DNA from: Artemia franciscana | Taxonomy: Eukaryota > Arthropoda > Branchiopoda > Anostraca > Artemiidae | DNA length: 64,000 bases | Reading direction: 5' to 3' | Assembly (NCBI RefSeq): GCF_032884065.1 | Contig: NC_088868.1 | Span: 33,258,890 to 33,322,889 of the forward strand | Shown here: positions 9,668 through 64,000 of the stretch, one piece after another | How the letters are laid out: the number at the start of each line of letters is the position of its first letter | Numbering within the stretch: position 1 is the first letter of the stretch | Position numbers and translations under genes: made by a program | The notes under the pieces: model-generated | Database searches by the model: none | What the model was told of the DNA's origin: nothing | What the model saw: the letters and a program-made list of their open reading frames with translations, nothing else

Positions 9668-9879
9668 AATACCCTTACCTATTCGTAACATGTTACACAT
9701 AAGCCTTTTTGATAACTTAGAAGCTGATAGTTTCTTTCGATTTAGTTCAATATTTCTCAAAATTCCAAGTCAATACCCTTACCTATTCGTAACATGTTAC
9801 ACATAAGCCTTTTTGATAACTTAGAAGCTGATAGTTTCTTTCGATTTAGTTCAATATTTCTCAAAATTCCAAGTCAATA
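9668..9879 (+). repeat. Perfect tandem duplication, 104 bp x 2
   Basis: The unit starting AATACCCTTACCTATTCG at 9668 is repeated without a visible mismatch from 9772, ending just before TGTTTGAC. Perfect identity inside an otherwise decayed family C block means the duplication is recent. Confidence 0.95.
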
Positions 9880-22883: not shown

Positions 22884-23211
22884 TCAAACAGTTTGTGGTA
22901 ACGAACTACTAGTAAGGATCTATGCGGTTCAATAGCAATCAAAACTCTAAGAAACCGAGTCTTAATAACTATAGATACATCAAAAGAATCGAATTTCGAT
23001 GCTTATAAATAGAAAAAAAACAAGTTTTTTAAATGAAAGTAAGGAGCTACATTAAAACTTAAAACGAACAGAAATTACTCCGTATATGAAAGGGGCTTTT
23101 TCTCCTCAACGCCCCACTCTTTACGCTAAAGTTTGACTCTTTCTCTTAACTCTACTTTTTAAAACAGTAAGAAACTTTAGCGTAAAGAGCGGGGCGTTGA
23201 GGAGGAAAAGT
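22884..23211 (+). mobile_element. Family B, short form: terminal 120 bp joined to palindrome
   Basis: TCAAACAGTTTGTGGTAACG opens the copy. After about 120 bases (to AATTTCGATGCTTATAAAT) the sequence jumps directly to the palindromic module at 23015-23211, skipping about 1.4 kb of body. The palindrome arms around 23095-23130 and 23171-23210 pair with one mismatch. Its outer right arm is missing, so the copy is cut there. The copy at 62041 has the same internal jump. Confidence 0.85.
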
Positions 23212-23214
23212 TCA

Positions 23215-27080: not shown

Positions 27081-27086
27081 ATTGAG

Positions 27087-27370
27087 TATTAACGTAGAAC
27101 AAACCTCTTCGATTTTGAAGTATCAAATTGGCAAAAGTGGAAAATATTTAATGATCGTCGTCAAAACCCCTAAATTGAAAGTCCCATCTACCATCTTAAA
27201 AACAAATAAGATTAAATTTTTACATAGTATCAACGTAGAACAAACCTCTTCAATTTTGAAGTATCAAATTGGACAAAAGTGGAAGATATTTTAATGATCG
27301 TCGTCAACACCCCTAAATTGAAAGTCCCATCTACCATCTTAAAAACAAATAAGATTAAATTTTTACATAG
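27087..27370 (+). repeat. Tandem duplication, about 141-143 bp x 2
   Basis: The unit beginning near AACGTAGAACAAACCTCTTC repeats with few differences (for example GGCAAAAG against GGACAAAAG) and ends in TTTTTACATAG both times. A 76-codon frame spans both units but breaks at the boundary. Confidence 0.95.
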
Positions 27371-27415: not shown

Positions 27416-27737
27416 GAATAGTAAAACTTAGGGTACTTGTGCATTATATGGTACACACTTGAGAATTTGCATCTACAGATCCCACAATAACCGGCTTATA
27501 ACTGTCGGTATTTGAAAAAAATTAGCTTAGTCTCAGTTGAAATCTACATTGTTGTTATATTTTTGTTAAATTAGTAAAACGAATAGTAAAACGTAGGGTA
27601 CTTGTGCATTATATGGTACACACTTGAGAATTTGCATCTACATATCCCACAATAACCGGCTTATAACTGTCGGTATTTGAAAAAAATTAGCTTAGTCTCA
27701 GTTGAAATCTACATTGTTGTTATATTTTTGTTAAATT
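27416..27737 (+). repeat. Tandem duplication, about 165 bp x 2
   Basis: The unit starting GAATAGTAAAAC (27416 and 27581) repeats almost perfectly through TATATTTTTGTTAAATT. It is a different sequence from the duplication that ends 46 bases upstream. Confidence 0.95.
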
Positions 27738-27739
27738 TT

Positions 27740-28375
27740 TCATAATTAGAGATGGTATTTTGGTTGAGTTAGGTCATGTTAGTTAAGATAATTGATATAA
27801 TACGTTCCATGCGGCCAATGCTATAATTCTTAGTTGTAATTTTCATAATTTTGCTACTAAAGTATTGTATTTTCATCATATTTCTGTATATTTCATTAAG
27901 ATTAACCTAACTGCACATCTCAAGTGTGTAACAAATAGCACACAAGTACCAAACTTAGGTCTGAATGTTCCTAAAAAACTATGAGAAATATCAGCAGTCT
28001 TTTTATTTTTGTAAATTGTATATATGAGTGTTGAACGATGTTAAAACTAAAAGTTTTGTTTGTTTCAAGTGTCAACTAAGGTTTTTTACTTCCATGAGAA
28101 AAACTGTTTTGCCAACTATTCATTAAAGGTTGACTTCGTAAATATAGCTGTTTTACCATTGGTCTAGAGGTTATGTGAGTGTTAAAGTTATAGCAACCTA
28201 TTATATTGTCAATATATTTGATGTCTACTCGCAGGTGGGTATTCACCATAATAATAACAAGTTTTGTTTGTCATAAAGTTGTCAAATTTTGTGTCATGAT
28301 TTTTGAAACAAGCATATATATCTAGCTTGATCATTGCTTAGAAACGGTTCTTTTTATTAAATGAATAAAAAAAAT
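27740..28375. other. No gene; short match to 53560-53610
   Basis: Around 27885-27925 the phrase TTTCATTAAGATTAACCTAACT parallels TTTCATTAGGATTAACCTAACT at 53568-53590, each followed within 20 bases by a GTGTGT-containing stretch. This hints at another low-copy repeat family. Confidence 0.5.
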
Positions 28376-28915
28376 ACTTTTTTTTTACTGAAAGCAAGAA
28401 GCGACATTAAAACTTAAAACGAACAAAATTTATGCCGCATATGAAAGGGCTGTTCAATCCTCAACACCTCGCTCTTTACTCAAAGTTTCTTATTACTTTA
28501 AAAAGTAAAGTTGTGACAAAGATCAAACTCCAGCGTAAAGAGCGAGGTGTTGAGGAGTGGACAACCCCCTTCATATACGGCGCAATTTCTCTTCGTTTTA
28601 AGTTTCAATTTCATTCCTTACTTTCAGTTAAAAAACACAGCTTTCTCAATTAATTTATGAACTTTCTTCACATAATGCAGGTTCGAACTTGGTTCACCGT
28701 ATATGAAAAATTAAAATTAACTTACAAATTAATTCTGGCACAGTTTCCCCCCGTGTAGAATTTCCTCTGGAAAGTTTAGCTCCAGAAACTACTTTCGCAA
28801 TTTTAATGGCTTCTTGTAGAAAATAACCTCTCCCCCAACCAAGAATATATCCCTTGAAAAAGTACATTTAAACTTCCCAATAGCCAATAATATATGTAAA
28901 CAATAGACAAAGTTG
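28376..28915 (-). mobile_element. Family B, palindrome plus adjacent body fragment
   Basis: The palindrome fills 28376-28640 (ACTGAAAGCAAGAAGCGAC at one side, CATTCCTTACTTTCAGT at the other). The inner arms CCTCAACACCTCGCTCTTTA and GTAAAGAGCGAGGTGTTGAG pair. The following 270 bases resemble the variant body seen at 49050-49460 (CCCTTGAAAAAGTACATT, AATAATATATGTAAACAAT). The TCAAACAG end is missing. Confidence 0.8.
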
Positions 28916-31026: not shown

Positions 31027-31299
31027 AGAGCTCTTGTTTTCGTTTTAATCAGTAAAAGAGATAACGCCACAGAACACCATTGCATTCCAGCCTTTTAGCT
31101 TTGACAGATCCAACATACTAAAGAACAAATATTGTAAGGGTATTTATGTAGGTTCCGAGTAGTCGATTCTGTACCAGTATGCAGTATACAAATCATCTCA
31201 GAACATACATGTAGTTCATGAGACCAAACCGTTAATATAGACCGATAATTCATTAAATCAAAACGTTACAGAATATCGTATGTATACCCATTATTATAT

Positions 31300-33089
31300 T
31301 AAATATAAAAAAAAGGTTTTTTAACTGAAAGTAAGGAGCGACTTTAAAACTTGAAACGAACAAAAATTATTCCGTACATTAAAGGGACTGTCAAATCCTC
31401 AATCCCCTCTCTCTTTACGCTAAAGGTTTTTGTTGTTTTAAAATGTTGAATGATGAGAAAGAGTCAACCTTTAGTGTAAAGAGCGGGGGGCTTAGGATTG
31501 GACAGGCCCTTTCATATACAAAATTATTTCTGGTTCGTTTGAAGTTTTAATGTCGATCCTCACTTTCATTTAAAAAACAACTTTGTTTTTAATTTAATTT
31601 CTCAATATTTTTGAATTAATGCAGGTTTTGGTTTTGGCTCACCGTACATGAATAAAACAAGAACGAAATTTGTATATTACTTTTGCTTTCTTTTTGACTA
31701 AATGGCTTGCTCAAAGTTTTGATCGGATGATTTTTAGAAAAAACGGGTGGGGAAGGTGACCTAGCTTCCTTCCCATTTTTTGGCTATTTCAAAAGACCAC
31801 TAGAACTTTCGATTTTATTTACGAACGTTTTTATTAGTAATAAATATACGTAAATTAAAAAAATTAACTTCCGTAACGAACTTCCATATTCGTAAATTTT
31901 TATTATGTATATGAGGGGGTTCACCCCCTCGTCAATACTTCCCACTTTACACTAACGTTTGGATTTTGTTCCAATTCTTTAAGAATGACCCTGGAATCAA
32001 AAAGGCCATTTAATTAGAATAAATAGCTCTTTTGAAATTACTAAAAATGCTTTAGCGTAAAGAGCGAGATATTGAGGAGGGGAAGAATCCCATCATATAA
32101 GTAATAATTCCTGCTCGGTTTAATGTTGCTTCTTACTTTCCGTTGAAAAAAACTTGTTTTTTATTCAATTTTTCTTTGTTTTTTTTTTAAATAATGCCTA
32201 AAATCCAGCATCCCCTTCATGGAAATTATCTTTCACTATGATAAATTTCTCCATGGAAAGATCCTTCCACATAACTCCCTCTCCCAGACCCTTCCACCAC
32301 TAGAAAAAATCCCCCTGAAGATGTCTGTATACTTTCTAATAATTAATACTATTTGTACACAATGGGCCAAGTTTATAATTTACAGTCCTTACTCCAGGGA
32401 CTGTGGGTGGTTAAGTCGTCCTCAAAGACATATGCTGAACAAAATGACCATCTTAAAATTTTCATCCGGTGACTATGGGAAAAAATGAGCGTGGGAGTCG
32501 GCCTAGTTGCCCCCCCCCCATTTTTTGGTCACTTAGAAAGGGCACTAGAACTTTTATTCTCTGTTTAATGAGCGTGGGAGTGGGCCTAGTTGCCCCCCCC
32601 CCCAATTTTTTGGGTCACTTAAAAAGGGCACTAGAACTTTTATTTTATGTTTAATGATTCTATGACCACTGGGTTGATACGATCACCCCTGAGAAAAAAC
32701 AACAACAAAAAAATAACAAAAAACAAGTGAACAAGCATCCGTCATCTTTCTTCTGGCAAAAAATATAAAATTCTACATTTTTGTAGATAGGAGCTTGAAA
32801 CCTCGACAGTAAGATTTACTAATAGGCAGAATCTGATTGTAGGATTTTCATTGAGGTTCTCTCACTTTTAGGGGGGAAGTTTCTCCTTTTTTCGAAAATA
32901 AAACAAATTTTCTCAAGCTCGTAAATTTTGATGGGTAAGACTAAACTTGATGAAACTTATATATTTAAAATAAACATAAACATCCAACTCTTTTGATGTA
33001 TCTATTGTTATCAAAATTTCTTTTTTTAGAGTTTCAGTTACTATTGAACCGGGTCACTCCTTACTACAGTTCATTACCACACTGTTTGA
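31300..33089 (-). mobile_element. Family B, full-length arm
   Basis: In minus orientation, this runs from the palindrome (31300-31585) through the body to the terminus CTGTTTGA at 33089. Landmarks in order: palindrome arms around CTCTTTACGCTAAAGG and TTTAGTGTAAAGAGCG; a second, looser foldback (31905-32110, TATGAGGGGGTTCACCCCCTC against GTAAAGAGCGAGATATTGAG); CCTTCATGGAAAT; ACTGTGGGTGGTTAAGTCG; a duplicated GAGCGTGGGAGT box; GGGTTGATACGATCACCCCTG; and the terminal hairpin, damaged here (CAGTTCATTACCACACTG). No coding capacity. Immediately beyond 33089 lies a LINE. Confidence 0.88.
32485..32655 (+). repeat. Tandem duplication, about 84 bp x 2, within family B
   Basis: ATGAGCGTGGGAGT at 32485 recurs at 32568, each followed by a GGCCTAGTTGCCC run of Cs, TTTTTTGG, GGGCACTAGAAC and TTTATT. 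C-run lengths differ. Other B copies have one unit, so this happened in this copy. Confidence 0.93.
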
Positions 33090-34855: not shown

Positions 34856-35160
34856 AATTAAATAAAAAAAAAACAAGTTTTTTTTAACTGAAAGTAAGGA
34901 GCGACATTAAAACTTAAAACGAACAGAAATTACTTCGTATATGAAAGAGGCTGCTTCCTCATCAACGCCCCGCTCTTTACGCTAAAGTTTGACTCAGTCT
35001 CTCAATTCTTCTTTTTAAAACAGTAAAAAACTTTAGCGTAAAGAGCGGGGCGTTGATGAGGAAGCAGCCTCTTTCATATACGAAGTAATTTCTGTTCGTT
35101 TTAAGTTTTAATGTCGCTCCTTACTTTCAGTTAAAAAAAACTTGTTTTTTTTATTTAATT
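34856..35160. repeat. Family B palindromic module, near-perfect
   Basis: The outer edges are AATTAAATAAAA and TTTTATTTAATT. Moving inward, the arms pair through AAGTAAGGAGCGACATTAAA, AACGAACAGAAATTACTTCG, TATATGAAAGAGGCTGC and TCATCAACGCCCCGCTC to ACGCTAAAG. The loop is about 40 bases with no strong pairing. Arms are about 130 bp with very few mismatches. Confidence 0.95.
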
Positions 35161-36590
35161 TCTGAACGTTTTTGAATCAATGCATGTTTTGATTTTGGCT
35201 CTCCGCAGAGGAATAATTAAAACGAAATTTGCATTTTTTTTTTTTTTTTTTGGCTAAATGGCTTTCTCATAATTTTAATCGAATGATTTTGAGAAAAAAG
35301 AGCGGGGGAGGAAGCCTAGTTGCCCTCCGATTTTTTGGTTAATTAAAAAGGCAACTAGAACTTTTAATTTTTTACGAATATTTTTATTAGTAAAAGATTT
35401 ACGTAACTTATAAATTAGCTTACGTAAAGAACTTTTGTATTCTCATATTTTATTACATATATGAGGGGGTTCACCCCCTTGTCAGATCTTCGCTCTTTAC
35501 ACTAAAGCTTAAATTTTGTCCCAATTCATTAAGAATGACCCCAGAATCACAAAAGCCGTAGAATAAATAGTTGAAATTACTAAAAATACTTTAACGTAAA
35601 GAGCGAGGTATTAGGAGAAGGTGAGCCCCTCAAATGGGTAATAATTTCTGTTTGTTTTAAGTTTTAATGCTGTTCCTTACTTCCAGCTGAAAGAACTTTT
35701 TCATATTTATTTTTTCATTGTGTTTTTAAATAATGCTAGTAAATCCTGCGCTCCCTTCATGGAGATTTTCTTCCCCCATGACAAATTATCGATGGAAAGT
35801 TCCCCCAGCATATCCCCCTCTTCTCAACCCCTCCCCCAACCAAAAAAATCCTCCTGAAAACGCCTGTACACTTCGCAATAACCATTACTATATGTAAGCA
35901 TTGGTCAAAGTTTCTAACTTGTTGCCCCTCCCATGGGGACTGTGGGGGAGTAATTCGTCCCCAAAGACATAGTTATAAGGTTTTTCGACTACGCTGAATA
36001 AAATGGCTATCTCAGAATTTTGATCCGTTGACTTTGGTAAAATAATTAGCGTGGGAGGGGGCCTAGGTGCCCTCCAATTTTTTTGGTCACTTAAAAAGGG
36101 CACTAGAACTTTTCATTTCCGTTAGAATGAGCCCTCTTGCAACATTCTAGGACAACTGGGTCGATACGATCACCCCTGGGAAAAAAAAAAAAAAAAAAAA
36201 AAAACAAATAAACACGCATCCGTGATCTGCCTTCTGGCAAAAAATACAAAATTTCACATTTTTGTAGATAGGAGCTTGAAACTTCTACAGTAGGGTTCTC
36301 TGATACGCTGAATCTGATGGTGTGATTTTCGTTAAGATTCTATGACTTCTAGGGGGCGTTTCCCCCTATTTTCTAAAATAACGCAAATTTTCTCAGGCTC
36401 GTAACTTTTGATGGGTAAGACTAAACTTGATGAAACTTATATATTTAAAATCAGCATTAAAATGCGATTGTTTTGATGTAGGTATTGGTATCAAAAGTTC
36501 ATTTTTTAGAGTTTTGGTTACTATTGAGCCGGGTCGCTCCTATTGAGCCGGGTCGCTCCTTACTACAGTTCGTTACCACGAACTGTTTGA
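34856..36590 (-). mobile_element. Family B, full-length arm (reference copy)
   Basis: The clearest single arm. Palindrome 34856-35160; TTGGCTCTCCGC box near 35195; AATGGCTTTCTCATAATTTT box near 35258; CCTAGTTGCCCTCC box near 35312; second foldback 35455-35640; CTTCATGGAGATTTTC near 35755; CTGTACACTTCGCAATAACC near 35862; GACTGTGGGGGAGTAA near 35938; GACTACGCTGAATAAAATGG core near 35990; TCGATACGATCACCCCTGGG near 36162 followed by a 24-base A run; terminal GAGCCGGGTCGCTCC, duplicated here (36521-36557); and terminal hairpin ending CTGTTTGA at 36590. It is about 1.73 kb. No open frame is shared between copies with codon-like conservation. Confidence 0.92.
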
Positions 36591-36612
36591 TGAAAGTTAT
36601 TTTGGATAAATA

Positions 36613-39600
36613 TCAAACAGTTGGTAATGAAAGAAGCGTAAGAAGAAGACCCGGTAAGAAGCGTAAGAAGTAAGAAGCGACCCGGTTCAATTGTAAACGA
36701 AACTTTAAAAAAACAGAATTTTGATACTAAAGATACATCGAAAGAATTGAATTTTTATGCTGATTTTAAATATATAAGTTTCGTCAAATTCAGTCTTTGT
36801 CATTGAAAGTTACGAGCCTGAGAAAGTTTGCTTTATGTTGGAAAATAGGGGGAACACCACCTAAAAGTACTAGAATCTTAACGAAATTCACACCATTGCA
36901 TTCAGCGTATCAGCAAGCCCTGTTGCTCCTATGTACAAAAATGTGGAACTTCGCATTTTTTGCCAGAAGACAGATTGGTGGTGCGTGTTTATTTGTTTTG
37001 TTTTTGTTGTTGTTGTTGTTTTTCTAGGGGTCATCGCATCGACTAAGTGGTCCTAGAATATCGCAGAAGAGCTCATTTTAACTGAAATAAAAAGTTCTAG
37101 TGCCCTTTTTAAGTGACCAAAAGTATTGGAGGGCACCTAGGCCCCCTCCCACACACATTTTTTTTTCCAAAGTCAACGGATAAAAAATTTGAGAAATTTT
37201 GAGACTCCCCCACAGTCCCCAGGGGAGGGGCTTCAAGTTACAAGCTTTGACCAGTGTTTACATACAATAATGGTTATTGGGAAGTCTACAGACGTTTTCA
37301 GGGAAATTTTTTGGATTTGGTGGAGGGGGGTTGAAGGGAGGGGGCTGTCTGAGGGGATCTTTCCTGGAAAGGATATGTCATGGAGGTAGAGAAATTCAAT
37401 GAAAGGGGGTGCATGATTTTCTAGCATTATTATAAAAACAACAATGAGAAAATAAACAAGAAAAAGATTTTCAACTTAAAGTAACGAGCTATGTGAAAAC
37501 GTAACACGAACAGAGATTATTACGCATATGAGGGCTCTTCTCCTCCTAAATACCTCGCTCTTTATGCTAAAGCATTTTTAATATTTTCAGCTATTTATTC
37601 TACGGTCTTTCTGATTTTGGGTTTATTTTTAGAGAATTGGGACATAATTTAAGCTTTAGTGTAAAGAGCAAGGTATTTACAAGGGGAAAAACCCCTTCAT
37701 ATACATAATAAAATATAAAAATATAGAAGTTCGTTACGTAAGTTAATTCTTAAGTTACGTATATTTTTTTAGAAATAAAAAGGTTCGTTAAAAATTAAAA
37801 GTTCTAGTTGTCATTTTAAGTAACCGAAAAATTGAAGGGCAACTAGGCTTCCTCCCCCAACTTTCTTTTTCTCAAATTCGTCTGATCAAAACTAAGAGAA
37901 AGCCATTTAGCCAAAAAAGAATTAATATGCAAATTTCATTTTCATAGTTTATGTGCAGAGAGCCAAAATCAAACATGAATTAATTCAAAAACGTTCAGAA
38001 ATTAAGTAAAAAAAACAGCTTTTTTAAGTGAAAGTATGGAGCGACATTAAAACTTAAAACGAACAGAAATTACTGTATGACTTTTATGAAAGGGGCTGTT
38101 CACTTCTCAACGCCCCGCTCTTTACGCTGAAGTTTTTTACTGTTTAATAAAGTAGAATTGAGAGAAAGAGCCAAACTCATTTATACGTTATTAAATGAAA
38201 AAAAAACTAGTTTTTTTAACTGAAAGTAAGGAGCGACATTAAAACTTAAAACGAACAGAAATTACTCCGTATATGAAATGGGTTGTCCCCTCCGCAGTCC
38301 CTCGCTCCTTACGCTAAAGCTTTTAATTGTTTTAAAAAGTAGAATTGTGGCAAAGAGTCAAACTTTAGCGTAAAGAGCGAGGGACTGCGGAGGGAACAAC
38401 CCATTTCATATACGGAGTAATTTCTGTTCGTTTTAAGTTTTAATGTCGCTCCTTACTTTCAGTTAAAAAAACTAGTTTTTTTTTAATTTAATTTCTGAAC
38501 GTTTTTGAATTAATGCATGTTTGATTTTGGCTCTCCGCACATAAATGATTGAAATGAAATTAGTATATTAATTTTTTTTGGCTAAATGGCTTTCTCTTAG
38601 TTTTAATCAGACGATTTTGAGAAATAAGGGGTGGGGAAGGAGTCCTAGCTGCCCTCCAATTTTTCGGTTACTTAAAAAGGCTACTAGAACTTTTAATTTT
38701 CAACGAACGTTTTTATTAGTAAGAAATATACGTAACTTAAGAATTAACTTACGTAACAAACTTTTATATTCTTATATTTTTATTATATGTACGAGGGGGT
38801 TTGTACCCTCGTTAATACCTCGCTCTTTACACTAAATCGTAAGTTTTGTCCCAATTCTTTAAGGATGACCCTTGAATCAAAAAGGCCGTAGAATAAATAG
38901 TTGAAATTACTAAAAATATTTTAGCATAAAGAGCGAGGTATTTATCTCCTCCTAAATACCTCGCTCTTGATGCTAAAGTATTGTTAGAACCCCTCATATG
39001 CGTAATAATCTCTGTTCGTTTTAAATTTCAATGCTATTCCTTACTTTCATTTGAAAAAACGTTTTCATGTTTATTTTTTCATTGTTTTTTTTATAGTAAT
39101 GCTAGAAAATCCTGCGCCCTTTTCATTGAATTTTTCTTCCCCCATGACATATTCCTCAAAGGCAAGATCCTCCCACAAACCCTCTCCCATCAACCCCACC
39201 CCCCAAACCAAAAAATCCCCATGAAAACGTCTGTACACTTCCCAATAACCATTACTATATGTAAACACTGGTCAAAGTTTGTAACTTGCAGCCCCTCCCC
39301 CAGGGATTGTGGGGGAGTAAGTCATTCCCAAAGACATAGTTATTATGGTTTTCGACTATGCAGAACAAAATGGCTATCTTAAAATTTTAATCTGTTGACT
39401 TTTGGAAAAAAATAGCGTGGGAGGGGGCCTATTTGCCCTTCAATTTTTTTATCACTTAAAAAGGGCACTAGAACTTTTCATTTCCATAAGAATGAGCCCT
39501 CTTGCGACACTCTAAGACCACCTGGTCGATACTATGACCCCTGGGGAAAAGAAAAAAAAACAACAAACAAACAAATAAACACGCACCCGTGATTTGTCTT

Positions 39601-39939
39601 CTGGCAAAAAATATGAAATTCCACTTTTTTTAGATAGGAGCTTGATGAATTTTTGCTATAGAGTTCTCTGATATGCCGAATGCGATAGTGTGATTTTCGT
39701 TAAGATTCTATGACTTTTAGGGGATGTTTCCCCCTTTTTTCCAAAATAGGGCAAATTTTCTCAGGCTCGTAACTTTTGATGACAAATACTAAATTAATTG
39801 AAACTTACATATTTAGAATCAGCGTGAAAATTCGATTCTTTTGATGTATCTTTTAGCATCAAAATTCCGTTTTTTAGAGTTCCGTTTACTATTGAGCCGG
39901 GTCGCCCCTTACTACAGTTCTTTACCACGAACTGTTTGA
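36613..39939. mobile_element. Family B inverted pair (two arms tail-to-tail), about 3.3 kb
   Basis: The left arm starts TCAAACAGTTGGTAATG at 36613, with its terminal hairpin disrupted by a local AAGAAGCG duplication (36630-36680), and runs in plus orientation to a truncated palindrome arm (38007-38160). The junction GAGAAAGAGCCAAACTCATT at 38162-38181 follows. The right arm then runs in minus orientation from a complete palindrome (38190-38492) to CTGTTTGA at 39939. Both arms carry the body landmarks of the copy at 34856. The same junction words recur in the pair at 45157-48656. The whole can be read as one element with inverted ends about 1.6-1.7 kb long. Confidence 0.85.
38190..38492. repeat. 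Family B palindromic module
   Basis: Arms include CCTCCGCAGTCCCTCGCTCC and its complement AGCGAGGGACTGCGGAGG, a variant different from the CAACGCCCCGCTC type but matched in both arms. One left-arm base (CTCCTTACG against CGTAAAGAG) is unpaired. Confidence 0.93.
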
Positions 39940-40269
39940 AAAGAAAATATTTCGGTATTTCGGGGCTTCTGACATTATTACTCCTTTGCGGAAGTTAGGC
40001 TCAAAATTGAAAAAGGATTATATTTTTTCTCTGGGCCCCTTCCACCTCTTAGTTCGTTTATTTTCCCGTTAGTTTTCACCTGTTTTCGCTTTATAGTTGT
40101 GTTATCTCTTAGCAGTTCTTTCGTTAGTTGAGTTATGGTTGTGGTATATATGTTTTATCGCTCGTATAGTTGTGTTATTTTCAAATTATACTCCATAATA
40201 GAGAGTCTCCGACACCCAGCATTGTATATTAAGCTCTGAATTTGACGTTTTTTTTCTAACGTGACCAGA
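39940..40269. other. Spacer without recognisable gene
   Basis: Not related to B by eye. Contains TATAGTTGTGTTAT twice (about 40093 and 40166). Confidence 0.5.
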
Positions 40270-41107
40270 TTCGTCCTGCGCCCTTTTCATTGAATTTTTT
40301 TCCCCATGGCATATTTCTCCAAGGAAAGATCCTCCCACATAGCCCCCTCCCTCAACCCTACCCCCAAAACCAAAAAAATCCCCCTGAAAACGTCTGTACA
40401 CTTCCCAATAACCATTATTATATGTAAACACTGGTTGAAGTTTGTAACTTGCGGCCCCTCCCCCAGGGACTGTGGGGGAGCAAGGCATCCCCAAATACAT
40501 AGTTATTATTATTTTCGACTATGCTGAACAAAATGGCTATCTCAAAATTTTGATCCGTTTACTTTGGGAAAAAATGAGCGTGGGAGGGGGCCTAGATGCC
40601 CTCCAATTTTTTTGGTCACTTAAAAAGGGCACTAGAACTTTTCATTTTCGTTAGAATGAGCCCTCTGAGCCCTCTTGCGACATTCTAGGACCACTTGGTC
40701 GATACGATGACCCCTGGGAAAAAAAAAACAAACAAACAAACAAATAAACACGCACCCGTGATTTGTCTTCTGGCAAAAAATGCAAAATTCCACATTTTTG
40801 TAGATAGAAGCTTGAAACTTCTACGGTAGGATTCTCTGATACGCTGAATCTGATGGTGTCATTTTCGTTAAGATCCTATGAATTTTAGGGGGTGTTTCCC
40901 CCTATTTTCCTAAATAAGGCAAATTTTCTCAGGCTCGTAACTTTTGATGGCTAAGACTAAACTTGATGAAACTTATATATTTAAAATCAGCATTAAAATA
41001 CGATTCTTTTGATGTAGCTATTGATATTAAAATTCAATTTTTTAGAGTTTTGGTTACTATTGACCAGGATCGCTCCTTACTACAGTTCGTTACCACGAAC
41101 TGTTTGA
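40270..41107 (-). mobile_element. Family B, partial arm without palindrome
   Basis: Begins inside the body at CCTGCGCCCTTTTCATTGAA, keeps CTGTACACTTCCCAATAACC, GGGACTGTGGGGGAG, the GACTATGCTGAACAAAATGG core, and the TCGATACGATGACCCCTGGG box, and ends in an intact terminal hairpin and CTGTTTGA at 41107. The palindromic half is absent. Confidence 0.88.
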
Positions 41108-41123
41108 TAATTTCTGTTCTTTT

Positions 41124-42250
41124 GAGAGAGAGAGAGAGAAGTTTATTAATATTAAATAGAAGACAATACAAAATACAATTCAAAATCAAATCACAATACA
41201 CTTAATTCCCCTCGAAAGGCTCCATGGCCAGGGATAAAAGGGGGATAAGAACAAAAAATAATATACAAGCGATAAATTTAATATAGGCAATATATTTATG
41301 AGGGATACAAAATAAGCAACAACTAGAAGGAGAAAAACAAAACAAAGAGAACATGCCTGAGGCCTGGGAGTCAAGTGCAGAGAAGACAACCACACACCAC
41401 GAACAGAACAAAGGGGACATCAACTTCTCACAGTAAAAAAAAAAGAAATATCATTCTATTTGATTCTTTATTAAATGATCCTTAAGAATCCTTTTAAAAG
41501 TCCCAAACGAGTGGCATTTTTGCACTGAGGAAGGTAGTGAATTCCAGACCTGTTGACAAGCAGTGTGGGGATTGAAATCTAATCGAATAGTAGGAGTAGG
41601 CAGAATGTAGATATTATTTGAAGAATGAAGGCTATATGGAGCTGAATCAGAAATAAACATAGGAGTTTTCCGAAGAGATTTAGGAAGATTGCCGTGAAAT
41701 TGATCAAAGACAAAAGAAGCACAAGAAATAATGTAAACAGACCATAGACTTAAGAGCGGTGTTGGTAAAGAACGGTTGTTTTCTATAATCAGACGCCATG
41801 CTTTATTATACATGACGGAAAGTGACCGCAGTGCAGACGGAAAAAGTAAACATCCAGACAATAGGGCAATAAGAAACATATGACTGTACAAGAAAGAAAA
41901 AAAAGAAGGTTCAAAATAGATCCAGGAAATGTGTATTTAAGTTTTCGAATGATACCAAAAATCCATGAAATCTTAACCCTAATCATGGCTACATGGTTTC
42001 TGAATGAAAGGTTCTCATCAAGCAGGATACCAAGAAACCGGAACACCCGATTCTCTGGTCTACACAAGGATCCTTGTGACACCTGAAGGTGTGTAAGCTG
42101 AGGGAAAGCTATGCCAATTCGAGAAAAAAAAATAAGAAAATTTTACTTACCAACATTCAAGACCAAGTAATTGGCATTAACCATGAAATAACTCTGTTTT
42201 CTTTAATGCTATAATGCTCTTATTTTGTACAATGGTATTATTATGTTTTT
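41124..42250 (-). pseudogene. LINE (jockey/CR1-like) 3' half with 3' UTR and (CT)n tail
   Basis: On the minus strand, from about 42190, decayed sequence gives ANYLVLNVGK. Then 42082-41789 gives VFRFLGILLDENLSF and RVKISWIFGIIRKLK. After a frameshift, an open frame of 146 codons (41891-41451) covers the C-terminal domain with PLLSLWSVYI, DSAPYSLHSSNNIY and QQVWNSLPSSVQKCHSFGTF. It then ends at a stop. About 320 bases of 3' UTR follow, closing with a TTAATAAAC polyadenylation-like signal and a CT-rich run (GAGAGAGAG on the plus strand, 41124-41140). Reverse-transcriptase catalytic motifs are missing by 5' truncation. It belongs to the family of 2341-4244 but is better preserved. Family B termini face it on both sides (41107 and 42252). 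Confidence 0.88.
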
Positions 42251-42931
42251 ATCAAACAGTTCGTGGTAACGAACTGCAGTAAGAAGCGACCCAGCTCAAT
42301 AGTAACCAAAACTCTAAAAAATAGAATTTTGATACCAATAGCTACATCAAAAGAATTGAATTTAAATGCTGATTTTAAATATATAAGTTTCATCAAGTTT
42401 AGTTACCCAACAAAAGTTACCAGCCTGAGAAAATTTGCATTATTTTAGAAAATAGGGGGAAACACTCCTTAAAAGTCATAGTATCTTAACAAAATCACAA
42501 AATAAGATTCAGCGTATCAGAGAACCCCATTGAAGAAGTTTAAAGTTCCTATCTACAAAGATGTGGATTTTTTTATTTTTTTTTGCCAGAAGGCATATCA
42601 CGGATGCGTCTTTATTTGTTTTGTTTTTTTATTATTTTTTGTCAAGGGTGACCGTATCGATCCAGTGGTCCTAGAATGTTGCAAGAGGGCTCATTCTAAC
42701 GGAAATGAAAAGTTCTAGTGCCTTTTTTAAATGACAAAAAAATTGGAGTGTACACAGGGCCCCTCCCACGCTGAATATTTTCCCAAAGTCAACGGACCAA
42801 AATTCAGAGATTGCCATTTTATTCAGCGTAGTCGAAAACCCTTATAACTATGTCTTTGGGGACGACGTACTCCCCCACATTCCACGTAGGAGGGGCTACA
42901 AGTTAAAAACTTTGACCAGTGCTTACATTTA

Positions 42932-43898
42932 GTGGTAAAATTATAGCAAACAGTATTACTGGCTTTTGTATAAAGTGAATATATCACTTAATGTCTTTTT
43001 TTATGCTCTTTACATATATAATATTCGCTTCTACCGGAAATTCAGATTTAAGCACTTTCTGACCTCTTAAAAATGACCTAAATGACCTAATGACCTAATA
43101 TGGGGTATAAAAAAGACTTAAAACATTGGTCTAAAACTTTATAACTTTGATCTCAATTTTTATAACATTAGACTCAAACTTACCATATCATTATAATCCT
43201 TTTTTTTAATGTTATATTATCCACAAGCACTGATTTTCCACGATTAAATTCAATAAATAAATTTTATCAATGTTATGACGTTTTCTTCTTCCTTGTCGCC
43301 AAAATTTCAATTAAAGCATGCATTTTTGGTTGTTTTTTACAAAATAATAGGATATTTGAAATCGCGAATCTGTAATAGTTTAGAAACAAATTTGGGCTAT
43401 ATATTTGCACATCAGGGGGTGGGGGTAAAGCATAGCATATATTAAATACATAAACTAACCATTGCTGTATTTAATATAGTTAAATTTATAGCAAACAGTA
43501 TAACTGGCGTTCATAATAGCCGACTTTCATATTTTCAACCAAAAAAGCATGCTTTTTGGTGTTAAGGAAGAAAAAAACGTCATAAAACTGGAAAAATTAA
43601 TTTATCCAAATTAATATTGGTAAATGAGTGCTTGTGAATTATATAACATTAAAAAAATTGATTTATAATGAAACAGTAAGTTGAGATCAATGTTATAAGG
43701 TATTTACGATTGAGACAAATTTTCTTAGCCTTTTTTATACCCCATATTTAGGTCATTTTCAAGAGGTCAAAAAGTGCTGAAATCTGAATTTCTGTTAGAA
43801 GCAATTATTACATTTGCAAAGAGCACAAAAAAAAGGCATTGGGTGGTATATTCACTTTATATAAAAGCCAGCAATACTGTTCGCTATAAATTTACCCT
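42932..43898. mobile_element. Foldback (long inverted repeat) element inserted in family B
   Basis: The ends GTGGTAAAATTATAGCAAAC and (reverse complement of the right end) AGGGTAAATTTATAGCGAAC begin inverted repeats that go on imperfectly for about 350 bp: GTATTACTGGCTTTTGTATA against GTATTGCTGGCTTTTATATA; then TTTCTGACCTCTT, ATGGGGTATAAAAAAG, CTTGTGG-type and GACGTTTTCTTCTTCC stretches pair with their counterparts at 43540-43800. Flanks are TTTA (42928-42931) and TATA (43899-43902). Removing the insert plus one TATA restores the normal B sequence ACATATAGTAATGG, so a 4-base duplication is the simplest reading; a TA duplication is possible. The middle holds a G-rich patch (43418-43430) and an extra copy of the terminal motif (43490-43517). 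No coding capacity. Confidence 0.88.
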
Positions 43899-44660
43899 TA
43901 TAGTAATGGTTATTGGGAAGTGCACAGACGTTTTCAGGAGGATTTTTTGGTTGGAGGGAGGGGCTGAGAAGAGGGAGATATGCTGGGGGAGCTTTCCATC
44001 GAGGAATTTGTCACAGGGGAAGACAATTTCCATGAAGAGAGCGCAGGGTTTTCTAGTTTTATTAAAAAAAAATGAAAAAATAAATATGAAAAAGTTCTTT
44101 TCAACTGGAAGTAAGGAGCAGGATTAAAACTTAAAACGAACAGAAATTATTACGCATATGAGGAGCTCACCTACCCCTAATATCTCGCTCTTTACGCTAA
44201 GGTATTTTTAGTAATTTCAACTATTTATTATAGTTGTTATTCAGTTGTTATTTATAGTTGTTATTTATAGGCTTTTGTTATTCAGGGGTCATTCTTAATG
44301 AATTGGGACAATTGTAAGCTTTGGTGTAAAGAGCGAGGTACTGACGAGGGGGTGAACTCCCTCATATATGTAATAAAAACATGAGAATGCTAAAATTCGT
44401 TACGTAAGCTACTTTATAAGTTCCATATATCTTTTACTAGTAAAAATATTCGTAAAGAATTGAAAGTTCTAGTTGCTTTTTTAAGTAACCAAAAAATCGG
44501 AGGGCAACTAGGCATCCTCCCCGACTCCTTTTTCCCAAAATGATTAGATCAAAACTATGAGAAAGCCATTAATCCCAAAAAATAAATATACAAATTTCGT
44601 TTTAATTATTCATCTGCGGAGAGCCACAATCCAAACATGCATTGATTCAAAAACGTTCAG

Positions 44661-44967
44661 AAATTAAAAAAAAAAAAAACAAGTTTTTTGAACGGAAAGT
44701 AAGGAGTGGAATTAAAACTTAAAATGAACAGAAATTACTTCGTATATGAAAGGGGCTGCTTCCTCCTCAACGCCCCGCTCTTTACGCCAAAGTTTCTTAC
44801 TGTTTTAAAAAGTAGAGTTAAGAGAAAGAGTCAAACTTTAGCGTAAAGAGCGGGGCGTTGAGGAGGAAACAGCCCCTTTCATATACGAAGTAATTTCTAT
44901 TCGTTTTAATTTTTAATTCCGTTCCATACTTTCCGTTCATAAAACTTGTTTTTTTTTTTATTTAATT
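44661..44967. repeat. Family B palindromic module
   Basis: Arms pair through CTTCCTCCTCAACGCCCCGC and GCGGGGCGTTGAGGAGGAA. This copy has TCCTCAACG where the 34856 copy has TCATCAACG, and in each case both arms agree. The outer arms carry matched private changes (AACGGAAAGTAAGGAGTGGA, GTTCCATACTTTCCGTT). Confidence 0.93.
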
Positions 44968-45156
44968 GGCATCAGAATCTATCCAAAAAAAAATTCGACA
45001 GTAAATTAGCTAAACACTAAATGAACGGTCCGACGCAAATTAGGAGTATTTACCTCAAATGCATTCTTGTTTTATCAAAAACTTTGTGATAGTAAATCCG
45101 GTTTAAGATGTTCACTGAATGAATGCTATATGCGAACTGAGTTTTTTACTGTAGAA
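44968..45156. other. Short spacer between family B copies
   Basis: No gene. It contains GATGTTCACTGAATGAAT, whose reverse complement occurs at 50066-50085 (ATTCATTCAGTGAACATC). Confidence 0.5.
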
Positions 45157-45161
45157 TCAAA

Positions 45162-45181
45162 CAGTTCGTGGTAACGAACTG
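45162..45181. repeat. Terminal hairpin of family B
   Basis: CAGTTCGTGGTAACGAACTG: 8 bp arms, loop GGTA, five bases inside the TCAAA end. Seen intact or nearly so also at 16706, 22884, 36590, 39939, 41107, 42252, 56739 and 58356. Confidence 0.95.
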
Positions 45182-46113
45182 TAGTAAGGAGCGACCCGGC
45201 TCAATAGTAACCAAAACTCTAAAGAATTGAATTTTGATATCAATAGCTACATCAAAAGAATCGCATTTTAATGCTGATTTTAAATATATAAGTTTCATCA
45301 AGTTTAGTCCTACCCATCAAAAGTTACGAGCCTGAGAAAATTTGCCTTATTTATGAAAATAGGGGGAAACACCCCCTAAAAGTCGTAGGATCTTAACGAA
45401 AATGACACCATCAGATTCAGCGCATCAGAGAACCCTACTGTAGAAGTTTCAAGCTCCTATCTACAAAAATGTGGAATTTTGTATTTTTTGCCAGAAGACA
45501 AATCACGGGTGCGTGTTTATTTGTTTGTTTTGTTTTTTTTTTTTTTTTTTTTTCCCAGGGGTCATCGTATCGACCAAGTGGTCCTAGAATGTCGCAAGGG
45601 GGCTCATTCTAACGGAAATGAAAAGTTCTAGTGCCCTTTTTAAGTGACCAAAAAATTTGGAGGGCATCTAGGCCCCCTCCCACGCTCATTTTTTTCCCAA
45701 AGTCAACGTATCAAAATTTTGAGATAGCCATTTTGTTCAACATAGTCGAAAACCATAATAACTATGTCTTTGGGGATGACTTACGCCCCACAATCCCTGG
45801 GGGAGGGGCTGCAAGTTACAAACTTTGACCAGTGTTTACATATAGTAATGGTTATTGGGAAGTGTACAGACGTTTTCAGGGGGATTTTATTTTATTTGGG
45901 GGTGGGGCTGAGGAGAGGGGGCTATGTTGGAGGATCTTTCCTTGGAGGAATCTGTCATGGGGGAAGAAAAATTCAATGAAAAGGGCGCAGGATTCTCTAG
46001 CATTACTATAAGAAAACAATGAAAAATAAACATGAAAACGTTTTTTCAAATGAAAGGAAGAAGTAGCATTGAAACTTAAAACGAACAGAGATTATTACGC
46101 ATATGAGGGGTTC

Positions 46114-46189
46114 TAAAAATACTTTAGCATAAAGAGCGAGGTATTTAGGAGGAGATAAATACCTTGCTCTTTATGCTAAAGTATTTTTA
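46114..46189. repeat. 34 bp hairpin inside family B body
   Basis: The arms at 46114-46147 and 46156-46189 (ACTTTAGCATAAAGAGCGAG type) pair with one mismatch around an 8-base loop, GGAGGAGA. Counterparts lie at about 38920-38995 and 47690-47765, all in the inverted pairs; the copies at 34856 and 42252 lack it. Confidence 0.92.
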
Positions 46190-46607
46190 GTAATTTCAAC
46201 TATTTATTCTACGGCCTTTCTGATTCAGGGGTCATTCTTAAAGAATTGGGACACAACTTACGATTTAGTGTAAAGAGCGAGGTATTAACGAGGGTACAAA
46301 CCCCCTCGTATACATAATAAAAATATAAGGTTATGAAAGTTTGTTACGTAAGTTAATTCTTAAGTTACGCATATTTTTTACTAATAAAAACGATCGTTAA
46401 AATTAAAAGTTCTAGTTGCCTTTTTAAGTAACCGAAAAATTACAGGGCAACTAGGCCTCCTTCCTCACCCCTTATTTCTCAAAATCATCTGATCAAAACT
46501 AAGAGAAAGCCATTTAGCCAAAAAAGGAATTAATATGCAAATTTCATTTTAATAATTTATGTGCGGAGAGCCAAAACCAAACATGCATTAATTCAAAAAC
46601 GTTCAGA

Positions 46608-46910
46608 AATTAAATAAAAAAAAACTAATTTTTTTAGCTGAAAGTAAGGAGCGACATTAAAACTTAAAACGAACAGAAATTACTCCGTATATGAAATGGG
46701 TTGTCCCCTCCACAATCCCTCGCTCTTTACGCTAAAGTTTGACTTCTGGCCACAATTCTACTTTTTAAAACAATTAAAAGCTTTAGCGTAAAGAGCGAGG
46801 GATTGTGGAGGGGACAACCCATTTCATATACGGAGTAATTTCTGTTCGTTTTAAGTTTTAATGTCGCTCCTTACTTTCAGCTAAAAAAATTAGTTTTTTT
46901 TTATTTAATT
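46608..46910. repeat. Family B palindromic module
   Basis: Arms pair through CCCCTCCACAATCCCTCGCT and GCGAGGGATTGTGGAGGGG, a third arm variant. The outer arms share the private change TTTTAGCTGAAAG and CTTTCAGCTAAAA. Confidence 0.94.
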
Positions 46911-46969
46911 CAGAGAAAGAGCCAAACTCATTTATACGTTATAATTTCTGTTCGTTTTGAGTTTTATTT

Positions 46970-47269
46970 AATTACATAAAAAAAACAAGTTTTTTGAAAT
47001 GAAAGTAAGGAGCGACAATAAAACTTAAAACGAACAGAAATTACTCCGTATATGAAAGGGGCTTTTCCTCCTCGACACCCCGCTCTTTACGCTAAAGTTT
47101 TCTATTGTTTTAAAAAGTAGAGTTGCGAGAAAGAATCGAACCTTAGCGCAAGGAGCGGGGTGTCGAAGAGGAAAAGCCCCTTTCATATACGGAGTAATTT
47201 CAGTTCCTTTTACGTTTTAATGTCGCTCCTTACTTTCATTTCAAAAAACTTGTTTTTTTTTATTTAATT
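46970..47269. repeat. Family B palindromic module
   Basis: Arms pair through CCTCGACACCCCGCTC and GAGCGGGGTGTCGAAGAGG, a fourth arm variant. The outer arms share GAAATGAAAGTAAGGAGCGA and its complement. Confidence 0.93.
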
Positions 47270-48656
47270 TCTGAAAGTTTTTGAATTAATGCATGTCTGA
47301 TTTTGGCTCTCCGTACATAAATTATTAAAATGAAATTTCCATATCAATTCCTTTTTTGGCTAAATGGCTTTCTCTTAGTTTTGAGCAGACGATTTTGAGA
47401 AATAAGGGGTGGGTAATGAGGCCTAGTTGCCCTCCAATTTTTCGGTTACTTAAAAAGGCAACTAGGTTTTTTAATTTTTAACGAACGTTTTTATTAGTAA
47501 AAAAATACTTAAATTAAGCATTAACTTACGCAACAAACTTTTATATTATTATATTTTTGATTATATATATGAGGGGGTTGGTCCCCTCGTTAATACCTCG
47601 CTCTTCACACTAAATCTTGTTTTGTCCCAATTCTTTAAGAATGACCCCTGAATCAGAAAGGCCGTAGAATAAATAGTTGAAATTACTTAAAATTTTTTAG
47701 CATAAAGAGCGAAGTATTTATCTCCTCCTAAATACCTCGCTCTTTATGCTAAAGTATTTTTAGATCCCCTCATATGCGCAATAATTTCTGTTCGTTTTAA
47801 TTTTTAATGCTTCTCCTTACTTTCAATTGAAAAAACTTTTTCAATTTTACATTTTCATTGGTTTTTTTTAATAGTAATGCCAGAAAATCCTGCGCCCTTT
47901 TCGTTGAATTTCTCTTCCCCCATGAAACATTCCTCCAAGGAAAGATCCTCCCATATAGCCTCCTCCCCTGAACCCCACACCCTAACCAAAAATAGCCCCC
48001 TGATAACGTAGATACAATTCCCAGTAACCATTACTGTATGTAAACATTGGTCAAAGTTTGTAACTTGCAGCCCCTCCCCCAGGGACTGTGGGGGGTAAGT
48101 CATCCCCAAAGATATAGTTATTGTGGTTTTCGACTATGCAGAACAAAATGGCAATTTTGGAAATAATGGCACTTTGGGAAAATAATTAGCTTGGGAGGGG
48201 GCCTAGGTACCCTCCAATTTTTTTGGTCACTTAAAAAGGGCACTATAACTTTTCGTTTCAGTTAGAATGAGCCCTCTTGTAACACTCTAGGATCACTCGG
48301 TGGATACGATGATCCCTGGGGAAAAAAACAAAAAAAACAAAAAAACAAACAAATAAACACGCACCCGTGATTTGTCTTCTGGCAACAAATACGAAATTCC
48401 ACATTTTTGTAGATTGGACCTTGAAATTTTTTCTATAGGGCTCTCTGATACGCTGAATGGGATGGTGTAATTTTCGTCAAGATTCTATGACTTTTAGGGG
48501 GTGTTACCTCCTATTTTCCAAAATATGGCAAATTTTCTCAGGTTCGTAACTTTTGATGACAAAGACTAAATTTGATGAAACTTATATATTAAATTCAGCA
48601 TAAAAATCCGATTCTTTTGATATATATTTTTTAGTTCGTTACCACGAACTGTTTGA

Positions 48657-51304: not shown

Positions 51305-52080
51305 TAAATACTGCTACTACTACTACTAACAATTCACCGCAGCACCAAGCCACCTGAGTTCAACACAGCTACGCATGGTCCTCCTCCATTCCAATATATT
51401 CAGAGCCTCCCTCTTTACACCCACCCAAGAATTTATCATTTCCTTTAAATCTTTCTTTATTAAATCCTCCCACCCCAGACGAGGACGGCCTGCTTTTTGT
51501 TTAGCCCTAGACGATTGGCAGAAAAGGACAATCTTTGGAAATATGTCATCCTTCATCCGCAGAACGTGTCCTAACCATCTCAACCTTTCTTTAATTATAG
51601 CCCTAGAAAGCGGGATTGAACCACACTTTTCATACAGCCTACTGTTTGAAATACGATCAGTCAGCCGGTTACCCAGAACAATCCGTAGGCAATTTCTCTG
51701 GAAAACATATAGTAAATCTTCATCCGCTTTTCGGAGCGCCCATGCTTCAGAGCCATATTCCACCACTGCCATCACTGTGCCTTTCAATATTCTAATCTTC
51801 GTTTGCAAACTTATCTTAGCTGTGAAAAAACACCCTGAACCTTGGCAATTCTACTTTTATATCTTCGCTGCTCCCACCGTAATACTACCAAGGTAAGAGA
51901 AGCTGCTCACCGGATCAATGATTTTGTTACCCTACGCTACCTTTTCATCTTCACTTATCCCTAGCCTTAGTGACTTTTTCTTCATAATATTAATTTTCTA
52001 ACCTATCCTAGCATCCTGAACTCGCAAAACCTCTAAAGTTCATTCATTTTCCTCACACTTTCACCTGATTGTGTCCCTAG
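51305..52080 (-). pseudogene. LINE (RTE-like) 3' portion, same family as 33090-34700
   Basis: The minus strand starts near 52080 with SVRKMNEL and a KINI-like word, continues through SSFSYLGSI (about 51905) after frameshifts, then enters an intact 160-codon frame (51808-51326). That frame has KIRILKGTVMAVVEYGSEAW, VFQRNCLRIVLGNRLTDRIS, LYEKCGSIPLSRAIIKERLR, WLGHVLRMKDD, KAGRPRLGWEDLI and LNILEWRRT. The catalytic YADD is just missing by 5' truncation. After the stop come TAG repeats (51311-51330 on the plus strand reads CTACTACTACTAC), which look like the element's 3' tail. It is the least damaged copy of its family here. Confidence 0.92.
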
Positions 52081-61911: not shown

Positions 61912-62040
61912 ACGAAAGAATTTTAATACGAAAACATGTTATCGTTTATAGAAGTAGGCTATACACGATGCCCAGGTCAACCCAAGAAAAGCAGATGTCA
62001 AAGCTGGATGAATCAAAATCTTTAGTCTCCCACGCCATCA

Positions 62041-63353: not shown

Positions 63354-64000
63354 TCGCCGTATATTTTTAATGCTTGTGTTGAAAATGTATTATGAAAAAT
63401 ATCGACTACGTGCCTACTAGGACCATCTGATGTCTCATATCTGTCTTATGCGGATGGCCTTCTTCTGATTAGTCAAACTGAGTCTGGTCTTGCCCGTTCA
63501 CTGAAGTCAGTTACTTCTACTTTCCGCGATATCGGCCTGTACCTAAACATTGACAAGTGCGAGTTTCTTGTTTTCAACGGTAATAATTGTTCAGAATCAC
63601 AATACAGCGATGGTTTTAGTATTCCTCGTGTTAAATCGTTTCGTTGGCTTGGTATAACAGTTTGCGATTCTATGAATACTCTCCGGTCTCGTGCTGTCAA
63701 AGATATTAGTGATAAGCTGAGGCTCGGTTACTCTAAGATTGTAGCAAATCGTGGTCACTATAGGAGAAGAGTGCTAACTCGGCTTTACTCAAATTTTGTG
63801 ATTATTCTGTGCTCTTCTGCTCTGGTATTAGGCCACTTCTGTTGACTGGTGATCTAAAACGCATTCGCATAAATTATTACCGATACTGCAAATTTCTTTT
63901 ATATCTACCTCGTTCTTACCGGAATACAAAACTGGTTAAAAAGTATTGTGCGACAGATATTACTGGTGCTTTCGAAAAATTATCTGCGAAGCTAGCTATT
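63354..64000 (+). pseudogene. LINE reverse transcriptase, 5' truncated, runs off the window
   Basis: From TCGCCGTATATTTTTAATGC the frame gives SPYIFNACVENVL, a stop (TGA 63393-63395), then LLGPSDVSYLSYADGLLLIS with the catalytic box at 63447-63458. One catalytic Asp is changed (YADG for YADD), so this copy would be inactive even without the stop. It continues GLYLNIDKCEFLVFNG, PRVKSFRWLGITVCD, ISDKLRLGYSKIVANRGHY and RRVLTRLYSNF. Near 63798 a one-base slip in a T run moves the match to the next frame, which gives YYRYCKFLLYLPRSYRNTKL to the window end. Compared with the other LINEs it is well preserved. This family is distinct from both others here. Its left edge lies against family B sequence. 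Confidence 0.9.

Follow-up and report, generated by a model that had tools for sequence, protein, structure and literature searches.

Helitron2/Helentron elements and the non-autonomous DINE-1 (HINE) elements are described as non-coding in the latter form, with a T(C) start and a 5′ hairpin, insertion without target duplication and, near the 3′ end, a subterminal inverted repeat with a small hairpin after it, and their hairpins are reported to be variable with compensatory changes (PMC3627910, PMC5148889, PMC2374699). For quasipalindromes, template switching is reported to homogenize the arms and to invert the spacer (PMC8604942), and new fold-backs are also described (PMC8604942, PMC8794818); the events presented in these reports, from yeast and rRNA, involve short arms (a few to 16 bp) with spacers of only a few bases, and carry no tie to a mobile element. 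The near-perfect palindromes of nematomorph mitochondria, which reach 284 bp and show paired changes between individuals and species, are described as coding and as kept perfect in place (PMC6649704). Foldback/Galileo elements of Drosophila possess long inverted repeats, reported to be 98–100% identical inside one copy but to diverge more from one subfamily to another (PMC3573991), and are described with target duplications, a P-type transposase and inverted repeats at both element ends.

The repeat analyzed here, located in a window of 64 kb (the whole stretch of DNA examined), resembles Helitron2 and DINE-1 in its start and 5′ hairpin, its lack of target duplication and of coding capacity and, in part, its subterminal inverted repeats, but differs in that the palindrome at its 3′ end, termed P1, is about 300 bp long with arms of more than 110 bp, compared to the stems of 7–11 nt described for DINE-1, that its 5′ inverted repeat does not lie at the very end and that it inserts between A and T. 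Compared to the nematomorph palindromes it is nuclear-looking and decays after insertion, and compared to Galileo P1 is a single compact hairpin at one end. P1 forms one terminus of a non-coding repeat unit of about 1.75 kb, of which the following copies were annotated:

34858–36590, plus strand: repeat unit copy e, with the order P1, B, P2, C1, C2, D end
36613–38190, minus strand: repeat unit copy f, arranged head-to-head with e and with the g-m insertion breaking the outer arm of its P1
38191–41107, plus strand: element g-m, containing P1 copy g (38191–38493) and two C2-D ends
42252–44965, minus strand: repeat unit copy h, with P1 at 44661–44967
45157–46908, minus strand: repeat unit copy i, with P1 at 46607–46910
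46972–48656, plus strand: repeat unit copy j, with P1 at 46970–47270 and the D terminus at 48656 (the BLAST match ends at 48624)
31299–33089, plus strand: older repeat unit copy d, with a decayed P1 (31298–31600) of 17% arm mismatch
34858–35160, plus strand: P1 of copy e, with 0 of 110 compared arm positions differing and the loop inverted relative to the unit
28356–28645, plus strand: older P1 copy c, with 20% arm mismatch and little unit attached
62162–62452, plus strand: older P1 copy k, with 16% arm mismatch, B and P2 after it and a short C2-D piece before it
22884–23215, strand not given: short derivative copy b, in which a truncated P1 is joined to a piece of D-C2

Copy h is additionally broken by an unrelated fold-back repeat at about 42934–43896. 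P1 is present in eight complete copies in the window, all of which share the same arm boundaries and loop, and as single-stranded DNA the P1 of copy e is predicted to fold with −156.6 kcal/mol compared to −30.0 kcal/mol for shuffled sequences.

An earlier note on this DNA had proposed, from five copies, that the two arms of each palindrome match each other but differ between copies. All five inner-arm strings it named are present, and each is matched by an exact complement on the other arm; the coordinates given there are palindrome starts, and the strings themselves lie at the following positions:

34959–34975 and 35043–35059: inner-arm string pair of copy 34856
44764–44780 and 44848–44864: inner-arm string pair of copy 44661
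46711–46725 and 46793–46807: inner-arm string pair of copy 46608
38293–38307 and 38375–38389: inner-arm string pair of copy 38190
47072–47085 and 47153–47166: inner-arm string pair of copy 46970

The outer-arm pairs GCTGAAAG/CTTTCAGC (46637/46874) and AACGGAAAG/CTTTCCGTT (44691/44929) are likewise present. In the order 34856, 38190, 44661, 46608 and 46970, the arms differ at 0/110, 2/110, 9/110, 0/110 and 8/109 positions, so that the mean arm divergence is 3.5% within and 13.0% between these copies (3.8% and 14.3% in a second alignment); random re-pairing of the arms was as good in a fraction of 0.0011 of 20,000 trials. The proposal thus held for the copies on which it was built, but all five are young, and the arms of the three older complete copies (28356, 31298 and 62162) are mismatched at 22/108, 19/110 and 16/101 positions (16–20%). 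Over all eight copies the comparison gives the same direction, with means of 8.9% within and 16.8% between copies, which none of 20,000 re-pairings matched. A maximum-likelihood tree of 19 arms places the arms of one and the same copy as sisters for seven of the eight copies (support 98, 96, 94, 94, 89, 65, and 49 for 28356), the arms of 31298 being the lone exception. The incomplete copies 22443, 23006 and 38000 were excluded from the pair counts and, save for the right arm of 23006, included in the tree.

The matching is also apparent at the level of single stem pairs. The eight complete copies come from one 64-kb window and are not mutually independent. Among their 117 stem pairs, 32 are changed on both sides (shuffled mean 13.5), as are 55 of 921 individual cells (shuffled mean 17.8), values reached in 0 of 500 shuffles; sliding the partner by 1–3 columns leaves only 2–6 such pairs. 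Changes in a single arm closely follow the rate of private substitutions in the adjacent unit (Pearson 0.986, Spearman 0.90, seven copies), while the number of paired changes amounts to 4–8 per copy and does not rise with age (Pearson −0.78, seven copies), a fall that may in part be an artefact of scoring against a consensus. Copy 28356 was omitted from these correlations because too little unit adjoins it, for which reason its loop orientation is also the weakest of the nine described below. Since old copies keep 16–20% mismatches and single changes track age while paired changes do not, the arms are matched in the propagating lineage and not in resting copies. The 30 unique paired changes comprise 14 transitions and 16 transversions and the private changes in the unit body 208 transitions and 186 transversions, hence nothing points to a passage through wobble pairs; between paired and single changes the transition to transversion ratio differs only weakly (Fisher p = 0.08).

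The loop is not simply free. Its sequence is retained, but in three of nine copies (e, h and f) it is inverted relative to B; c, d, g, i, j and k lack the inversion. As e, h and f may share ancestry, the inversion may be a single old event. A second rearrangement is found in P2, the second and shorter hairpin of the unit, in which a fold-back copy of 43 nt near P1 is confined to the clade of g, i and j and missing from e, f, h, d and k:

35490–35612, plus strand: P2, used as a control, arms unmatched
38910–38987, plus strand: fold-back scar in P2 of copy g, with arms of about 35 bp
46113–46190: fold-back scar in P2 of copy i
47686–47763: fold-back scar in P2 of copy j

The P2 arms differ by 19.6% within copies compared to 15.5% left to left and 12.0% right to right, and one P2 position is A in 8/8 left arms and G in 8/8 right arms. 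Furthermore, the unit bodies of e and f, which form an inverted pair with 77 bp between the aligned parts, show 18.8% divergence, so that inverted repeats are not generally evened out in this DNA. Matched arms, an inverted spacer and newly formed fold-back copies are published signatures of template switching; all three occur in this repeat, and we infer the mechanism itself from them.

By its ends, the repeat is Helitron-like. The unit of copy e, read on the minus strand, starts with TC and ends with TTTAA, and element g-m interrupts an older P1 arm between A and T without target duplication, as in canonical Helitrons (Helitron1); its joined flanks are 96.4% identical over 55 columns to the uninterrupted paralogue 46907–46961. 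By eye, element i lies between the A and T of a probable P1 loop, BLAST of the joined flanks having missed the loop of f, and elements d and h gave no junction-spanning match (the ends used for h being a few bases off). Of the canonical 5′ TC and 3′ CTRR only the former is present, as the other end is TTTAA and the end read in the opposite direction is TTGA. The 5′ terminal hairpin of Helitron2/DINE is found at 45157 in TCAAACAGTTCGTGGTAACGAACTG, with an 8-bp stem CAGTTCGT/ACGAACTG from base 6. In element i, the 13-mer AGTAAGGAGCGAC has its first base at position 27 counted from the 5′ end, and its complement stops 33 bases before the 3′ end, which compared to the asymmetric inverted repeats of Helitron2/DINE (0–2 bp 5′, 20–30 bp 3′) is a misfit at the 5′ and a rough fit at the 3′ side; a small palindrome follows the 3′ copy of the 13-mer (38465–38482, 35132–35153). 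TIR transposons, MITEs and Foldback elements do not describe the repeat, as target duplication is absent at the single insertion for which a clear empty paralogue exists and the two element ends share only short subterminal inverted repeats. A Pfam scan of 7 of the 17 open reading frames of at least 110 aa in the window found one reverse transcriptase fragment and no other family, and the window contains no Rfam match at gathering score and no detected tRNA. A 24-mer from the arm has no exact match in genome_contigs and viral_contigs, and 34856–38500 none in the phage collection; these collections are prokaryotic or viral, so missing relatives say little for a eukaryote.

We consider copying of one arm from the other as template during replication of the element the best reading, at a probability of roughly 0.58. 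That the halves change together during spread and diverge after settling suggests that one half probably serves as template for the other. The paired excess, the age dependence, the loop inversion, the fold-back scar and the A^T insertion at one site are read directly from the DNA. P1 would be the hairpin that terminates a Helitron-like, non-coding repeat, whose ends would become single-stranded and fold when the element is copied. DNA synthesis would then sometimes switch template inside the stem and rewrite one arm from the other, so that a new base in one arm is either lost or fixed in both, which would leave changes that are exactly paired; a switch that spans the loop would invert it. After insertion the copy would be ordinary chromosomal DNA, in which copying ends and the arms decay independently. 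The copying would presumably take place during transposition and via a single-stranded intermediate, with a Helitron Rep/helicase as the probable mobilizing enzyme. A more specific version, in which the 3′ end folds back and primes its own terminus in each transposition round in the manner of a parvovirus hairpin, is rather doubtful.

The main rival, which we regard as unlikely, is selection for a folded hairpin, formed either by RNA or by single-stranded DNA to which the transposition machinery binds, so that ordinary compensatory mutations would keep the arms of source elements complementary. For the hairpins of Helitron2 and DINE-1, structure is said to be retained through such changes (PMC3627910, PMC2374699), and among 48 transitional single-arm changes 35 retain a G-T pair on the TC-start strand versus 13 on the other (p = 0.002), compared to a balance of 104 to 104 in the unit body (Fisher p = 0.006 for the contrast with the arms). 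However, no wobble path is possible for the 16 transversions among the unique paired changes, two near-identical young copies carry 0/110 arm mismatches despite 7 and 8 paired changes, and neither the loop inversion nor the fold-back scar is predicted by folding. The palindrome might also have been rebuilt once per lineage from a single arm by inverted duplication, in which case matched arms would reflect repeated births and not ongoing exchange. A fold-back birth is visible in P2 of g, i and j and solo or hybrid arms occur (22443), but the boundaries and loop common to 8/8 palindromes, and the several paired changes that separate the sisters g and i although they inherited one palindrome, make this improbable.

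Matching of the arms where resting copies sit in the chromosome, with no part played by transposition and through gene conversion, cruciform repair or template switching at replication, requires no mobile element and is documented for other inverted repeats (PMC8604942, PMC6649704), but is very improbable here: old copies are still mismatched, single-arm changes are proportional to age while paired ones are not, and the long inverted pair e/f is unmatched. We thus rejected homogenization in situ on the age dependence together with the e/f and P2 controls. The earlier note had left open whether the arms are homogenized or kept paired by selection on folding; arm template copying fits best, though not as upkeep of resting copies.

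Two competing answers, selection and template copying, are offered for the perfection of long hairpins, and a dispersed repeat whose hairpin is frozen once it inserts is a natural test of them, as changes are paired during propagation and single afterwards. If the more specific, parvovirus-like version is true, this would be a case of rolling-hairpin ends in a eukaryotic Helitron-like element, with one arm rewritten and a loop that can flip, and paired and unpaired changes would split the life in the active lineage from the time since insertion. Should it apply genome-wide, each copy would carry two clocks that run separately, and the structure of the ends would suggest that Helitron-like elements transpose through single-stranded or fold-back intermediates.

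As a test of folding selection the wobble-type changes are mixed, being few on one strand and in excess on the other. On the P1-first strand, 13 wobble pairs occur among 76 arm differences, which speaks against RNA-fold selection, and in the second alignment 36 of 49 transitions are of wobble type on the TC-start strand. This strand bias (13 versus 35–36) is unexplained, and the template-copying model does not predict it. Finally, an identical 31-bp stretch flanks 38191–46908 and was considered as a target duplication; it is better read as two P1 remnants, one in f and one in the piece to the right of i, which were separately interrupted by different insertions.

P1, a palindrome of about 300 bp, forms one end of a unit of about 1.75 kb with the order P1-B-P2-C1-C2-D, in which P2 is a shorter hairpin. 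Copies and units carry the same letters:

28356 (c), 31298 (d), 34856 (e), 38190 (g), 44661 (h), 46608 (i), 46970 (j) and 62162 (k): complete P1 copies (n = 8)
22443, 23006 (b) and 38000 (f): incomplete P1 copies
31299–33089: unit d
34858–36590: unit e
42252–44965: unit h, contains an insert
45157–46908: unit i
46972–48656: unit j

The inner- and outer-arm strings quoted in the earlier note, and their complements, were all located in the window. Its claim that the two arms of a copy resemble each other more than those of other copies holds for the five copies it named, with a divergence of 3.5% within and 13.0% between copies, and across all eight complete copies the values are 8.9% and 16.8%. 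In seven of eight copies, the two arms are sisters in a tree. The paired substitutions it described were likewise recovered: in the alignment of these eight related copies from a single 64-kb window, 32 pairs and 55 cells of the 117-pair stem carry changes on both sides, and 92.5% of the cells are paired. Shuffling gave means of 13.5 pairs and 17.8 cells, and none of 500 shuffles matched the observed values. Slid versions of the stem yielded 2–6 pairs with changes on both sides, a comparison in which the stem has an advantage because it was derived from copy 34856, itself one of the eight aligned.

As a measure of copy age we used the private substitution rate (changes found in one copy only) of the adjoining unit body, which ranges from 0.8 to 6.1% in seven copies. 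At body rates of 0.8, 1.6, 1.5, 3.0, 3.2, 4.8 and 6.1%, the arms contain 0, 0, 2, 9, 8, 16 and 19 mismatched positions (Pearson 0.986, Spearman 0.90), while the paired changes number 8, 7, 6, 7, 5, 4 and 5 (Pearson −0.78); 0.15–0.78 identical coincidences per P1 copy are expected by chance. Since the mismatches track the body rate and the paired changes do not, paired changes in P1 date from before insertion and single ones from after it. The slight drop of the paired counts with age may be due to consensus-based scoring.

No arm matching was found in the P2 hairpin (23 stem positions, 8 copies), in which the arms differ by 19.6% within copies, 15.5% left to left and 12.0% right to right, and in which one position has a different fixed base in left and right arms in 8/8 copies. 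Units e and f are inverted relative to each other over a long stretch; their aligned parts are separated by 77 bp and their bodies diverge by 18.8%. Thus, inverted repeats in this stretch are not generally homogenised. The pair lies head-to-head at 34858–38190, spans 3.3 kb with bodies about 19% diverged, and has 22 bp between its D ends.

The arm matching is most likely explained by template switching within the stem during copying of the element. The element would be copied via a stage in which its end is single-stranded or newly replicated, and the 117-bp stem would fold at that stage (copy e as ssDNA folds at −156.6 kcal/mol, shuffles at −30.0). Synthesis would change template inside the stem, whereby one arm would be rewritten from the other, a switch would occasionally turn the loop, and rewriting would cease once the element is inserted. 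From the age pattern, we infer that the arm-rewriting step coincides with transposition. When copies are oriented so that the B module is to the right, the P1 loop has a common orientation in c, d, g, i, j and k, the call for c being based on little sequence, and is reverse-complemented in e, h and f. A 43-nt inverted copy of P2's own right side is contained in P2 of g, i and j and is absent in e, f, h, d and k; this fold-back is the product expected when a polymerase switches onto its own new strand. According to PMC8604942 and PMC8794818, template switching at quasipalindromes homogenises the arms, inverts the spacer and creates new fold-backs, the same three signs as in this unit, and PMC6649704 describes long mitochondrial palindromes that, as P1 does, show paired substitutions. 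Copy j (46970–48656) groups with g and i in its unit body and P2 scar and with e, h, f and b in its P1 arms (support 79), and may reflect an exchange between P1 and body.

Compensatory selection for pairing is an unlikely source of the matching, and retains its standing mainly because of an excess of single-arm transitions that preserve G-T pairing on one strand, the TC-first strand (the unit read from its D end). The 48 transitional single-arm differences divide into 35 that give a G-T pair on this strand and 13 that give one on the opposite strand (p = 0.002). Three old copies dominate this bias, and a second alignment reproduces it (36 to 13, p = 0.001). Private changes of the unit body, which was tested only after the bias had been noticed, show no strand bias (104 to 104). 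Selection acting on the TC-first strand to keep it paired as RNA or ssDNA could account for the bias, as could biased mutation of the hairpin.

Read from D, the unit starts with TC and an 8-bp hairpin and finishes with TTTAA, and A precedes TC at 8/9 strictly matched D ends (T next in the opposite reading). A 13-mer recurs in inverted orientation close to the two unit ends, at distances of 26 and 33 bases; at the P1 end, a small palindrome follows it. Element g-m (38191–41107) lies within the arm of an older P1, where it separates an A from the adjacent T; judged against the uninterrupted paralogue of this site (46907–46961, 96.4% over 55 columns), there is no target duplication. By eye, element i seems to have inserted at an A/T junction in a P1 loop; when its joined flanks were used as a BLAST query, the f loop was not retrieved, and no empty sites were found for d and h.

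The ends of the unit resemble those of Helitron2/DINE as described in PMC3627910, PMC5148889 and PMC2374699, which also record compensatory changes in the terminal hairpins of these elements. Since the canonical Helitron 3′ CTRR is missing and the 5′ inverted repeat, unlike that of Helitron2/DINE, is non-terminal, the unit is not classed as a Helitron member; it inserts in a Helitron-like manner without being assigned to the group. Compensatory change in Helitron2/DINE hairpins and homogenisation by template switch are already published; the portions consulted of the literature on Helitron hairpins and compensatory change and on template switching and palindromes describe no Helitron-like element whose terminal palindrome is this large and whose arms were matched up to insertion but not later.

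Unit h is interrupted by an unrelated fold-back repeat of about 960 bp (42934–43896, 71% self-complementary), whose terminal motif TATAGCAAACAGTAT is repeated internally near 43490. At 22884–23215 and ~62040–62452, a D-C2 piece of about 125 bp is fused to P1 at nearly the same C2 point (ATGCT/GATT), as if these were products of short derivatives; in the latter, B lies on the far side of P1.

The window is AT-rich (GC 27–39% in 2-kb steps) and looks eukaryotic. It gave no match in tRNA and Rfam searches, nor did its ORFs 41451–42142 and 51326–51850 in a Pfam scan. Reverse-transcriptase debris is present as an RVT_1 (Pfam) fragment at 63396–63845 on the + strand (E = 1.7e-8). Two-copy tandem duplications occupy 9651–9879, 27085–27370 and 27416–27737, with periods of 104, 143 and 165 bp and 95–98% matching.
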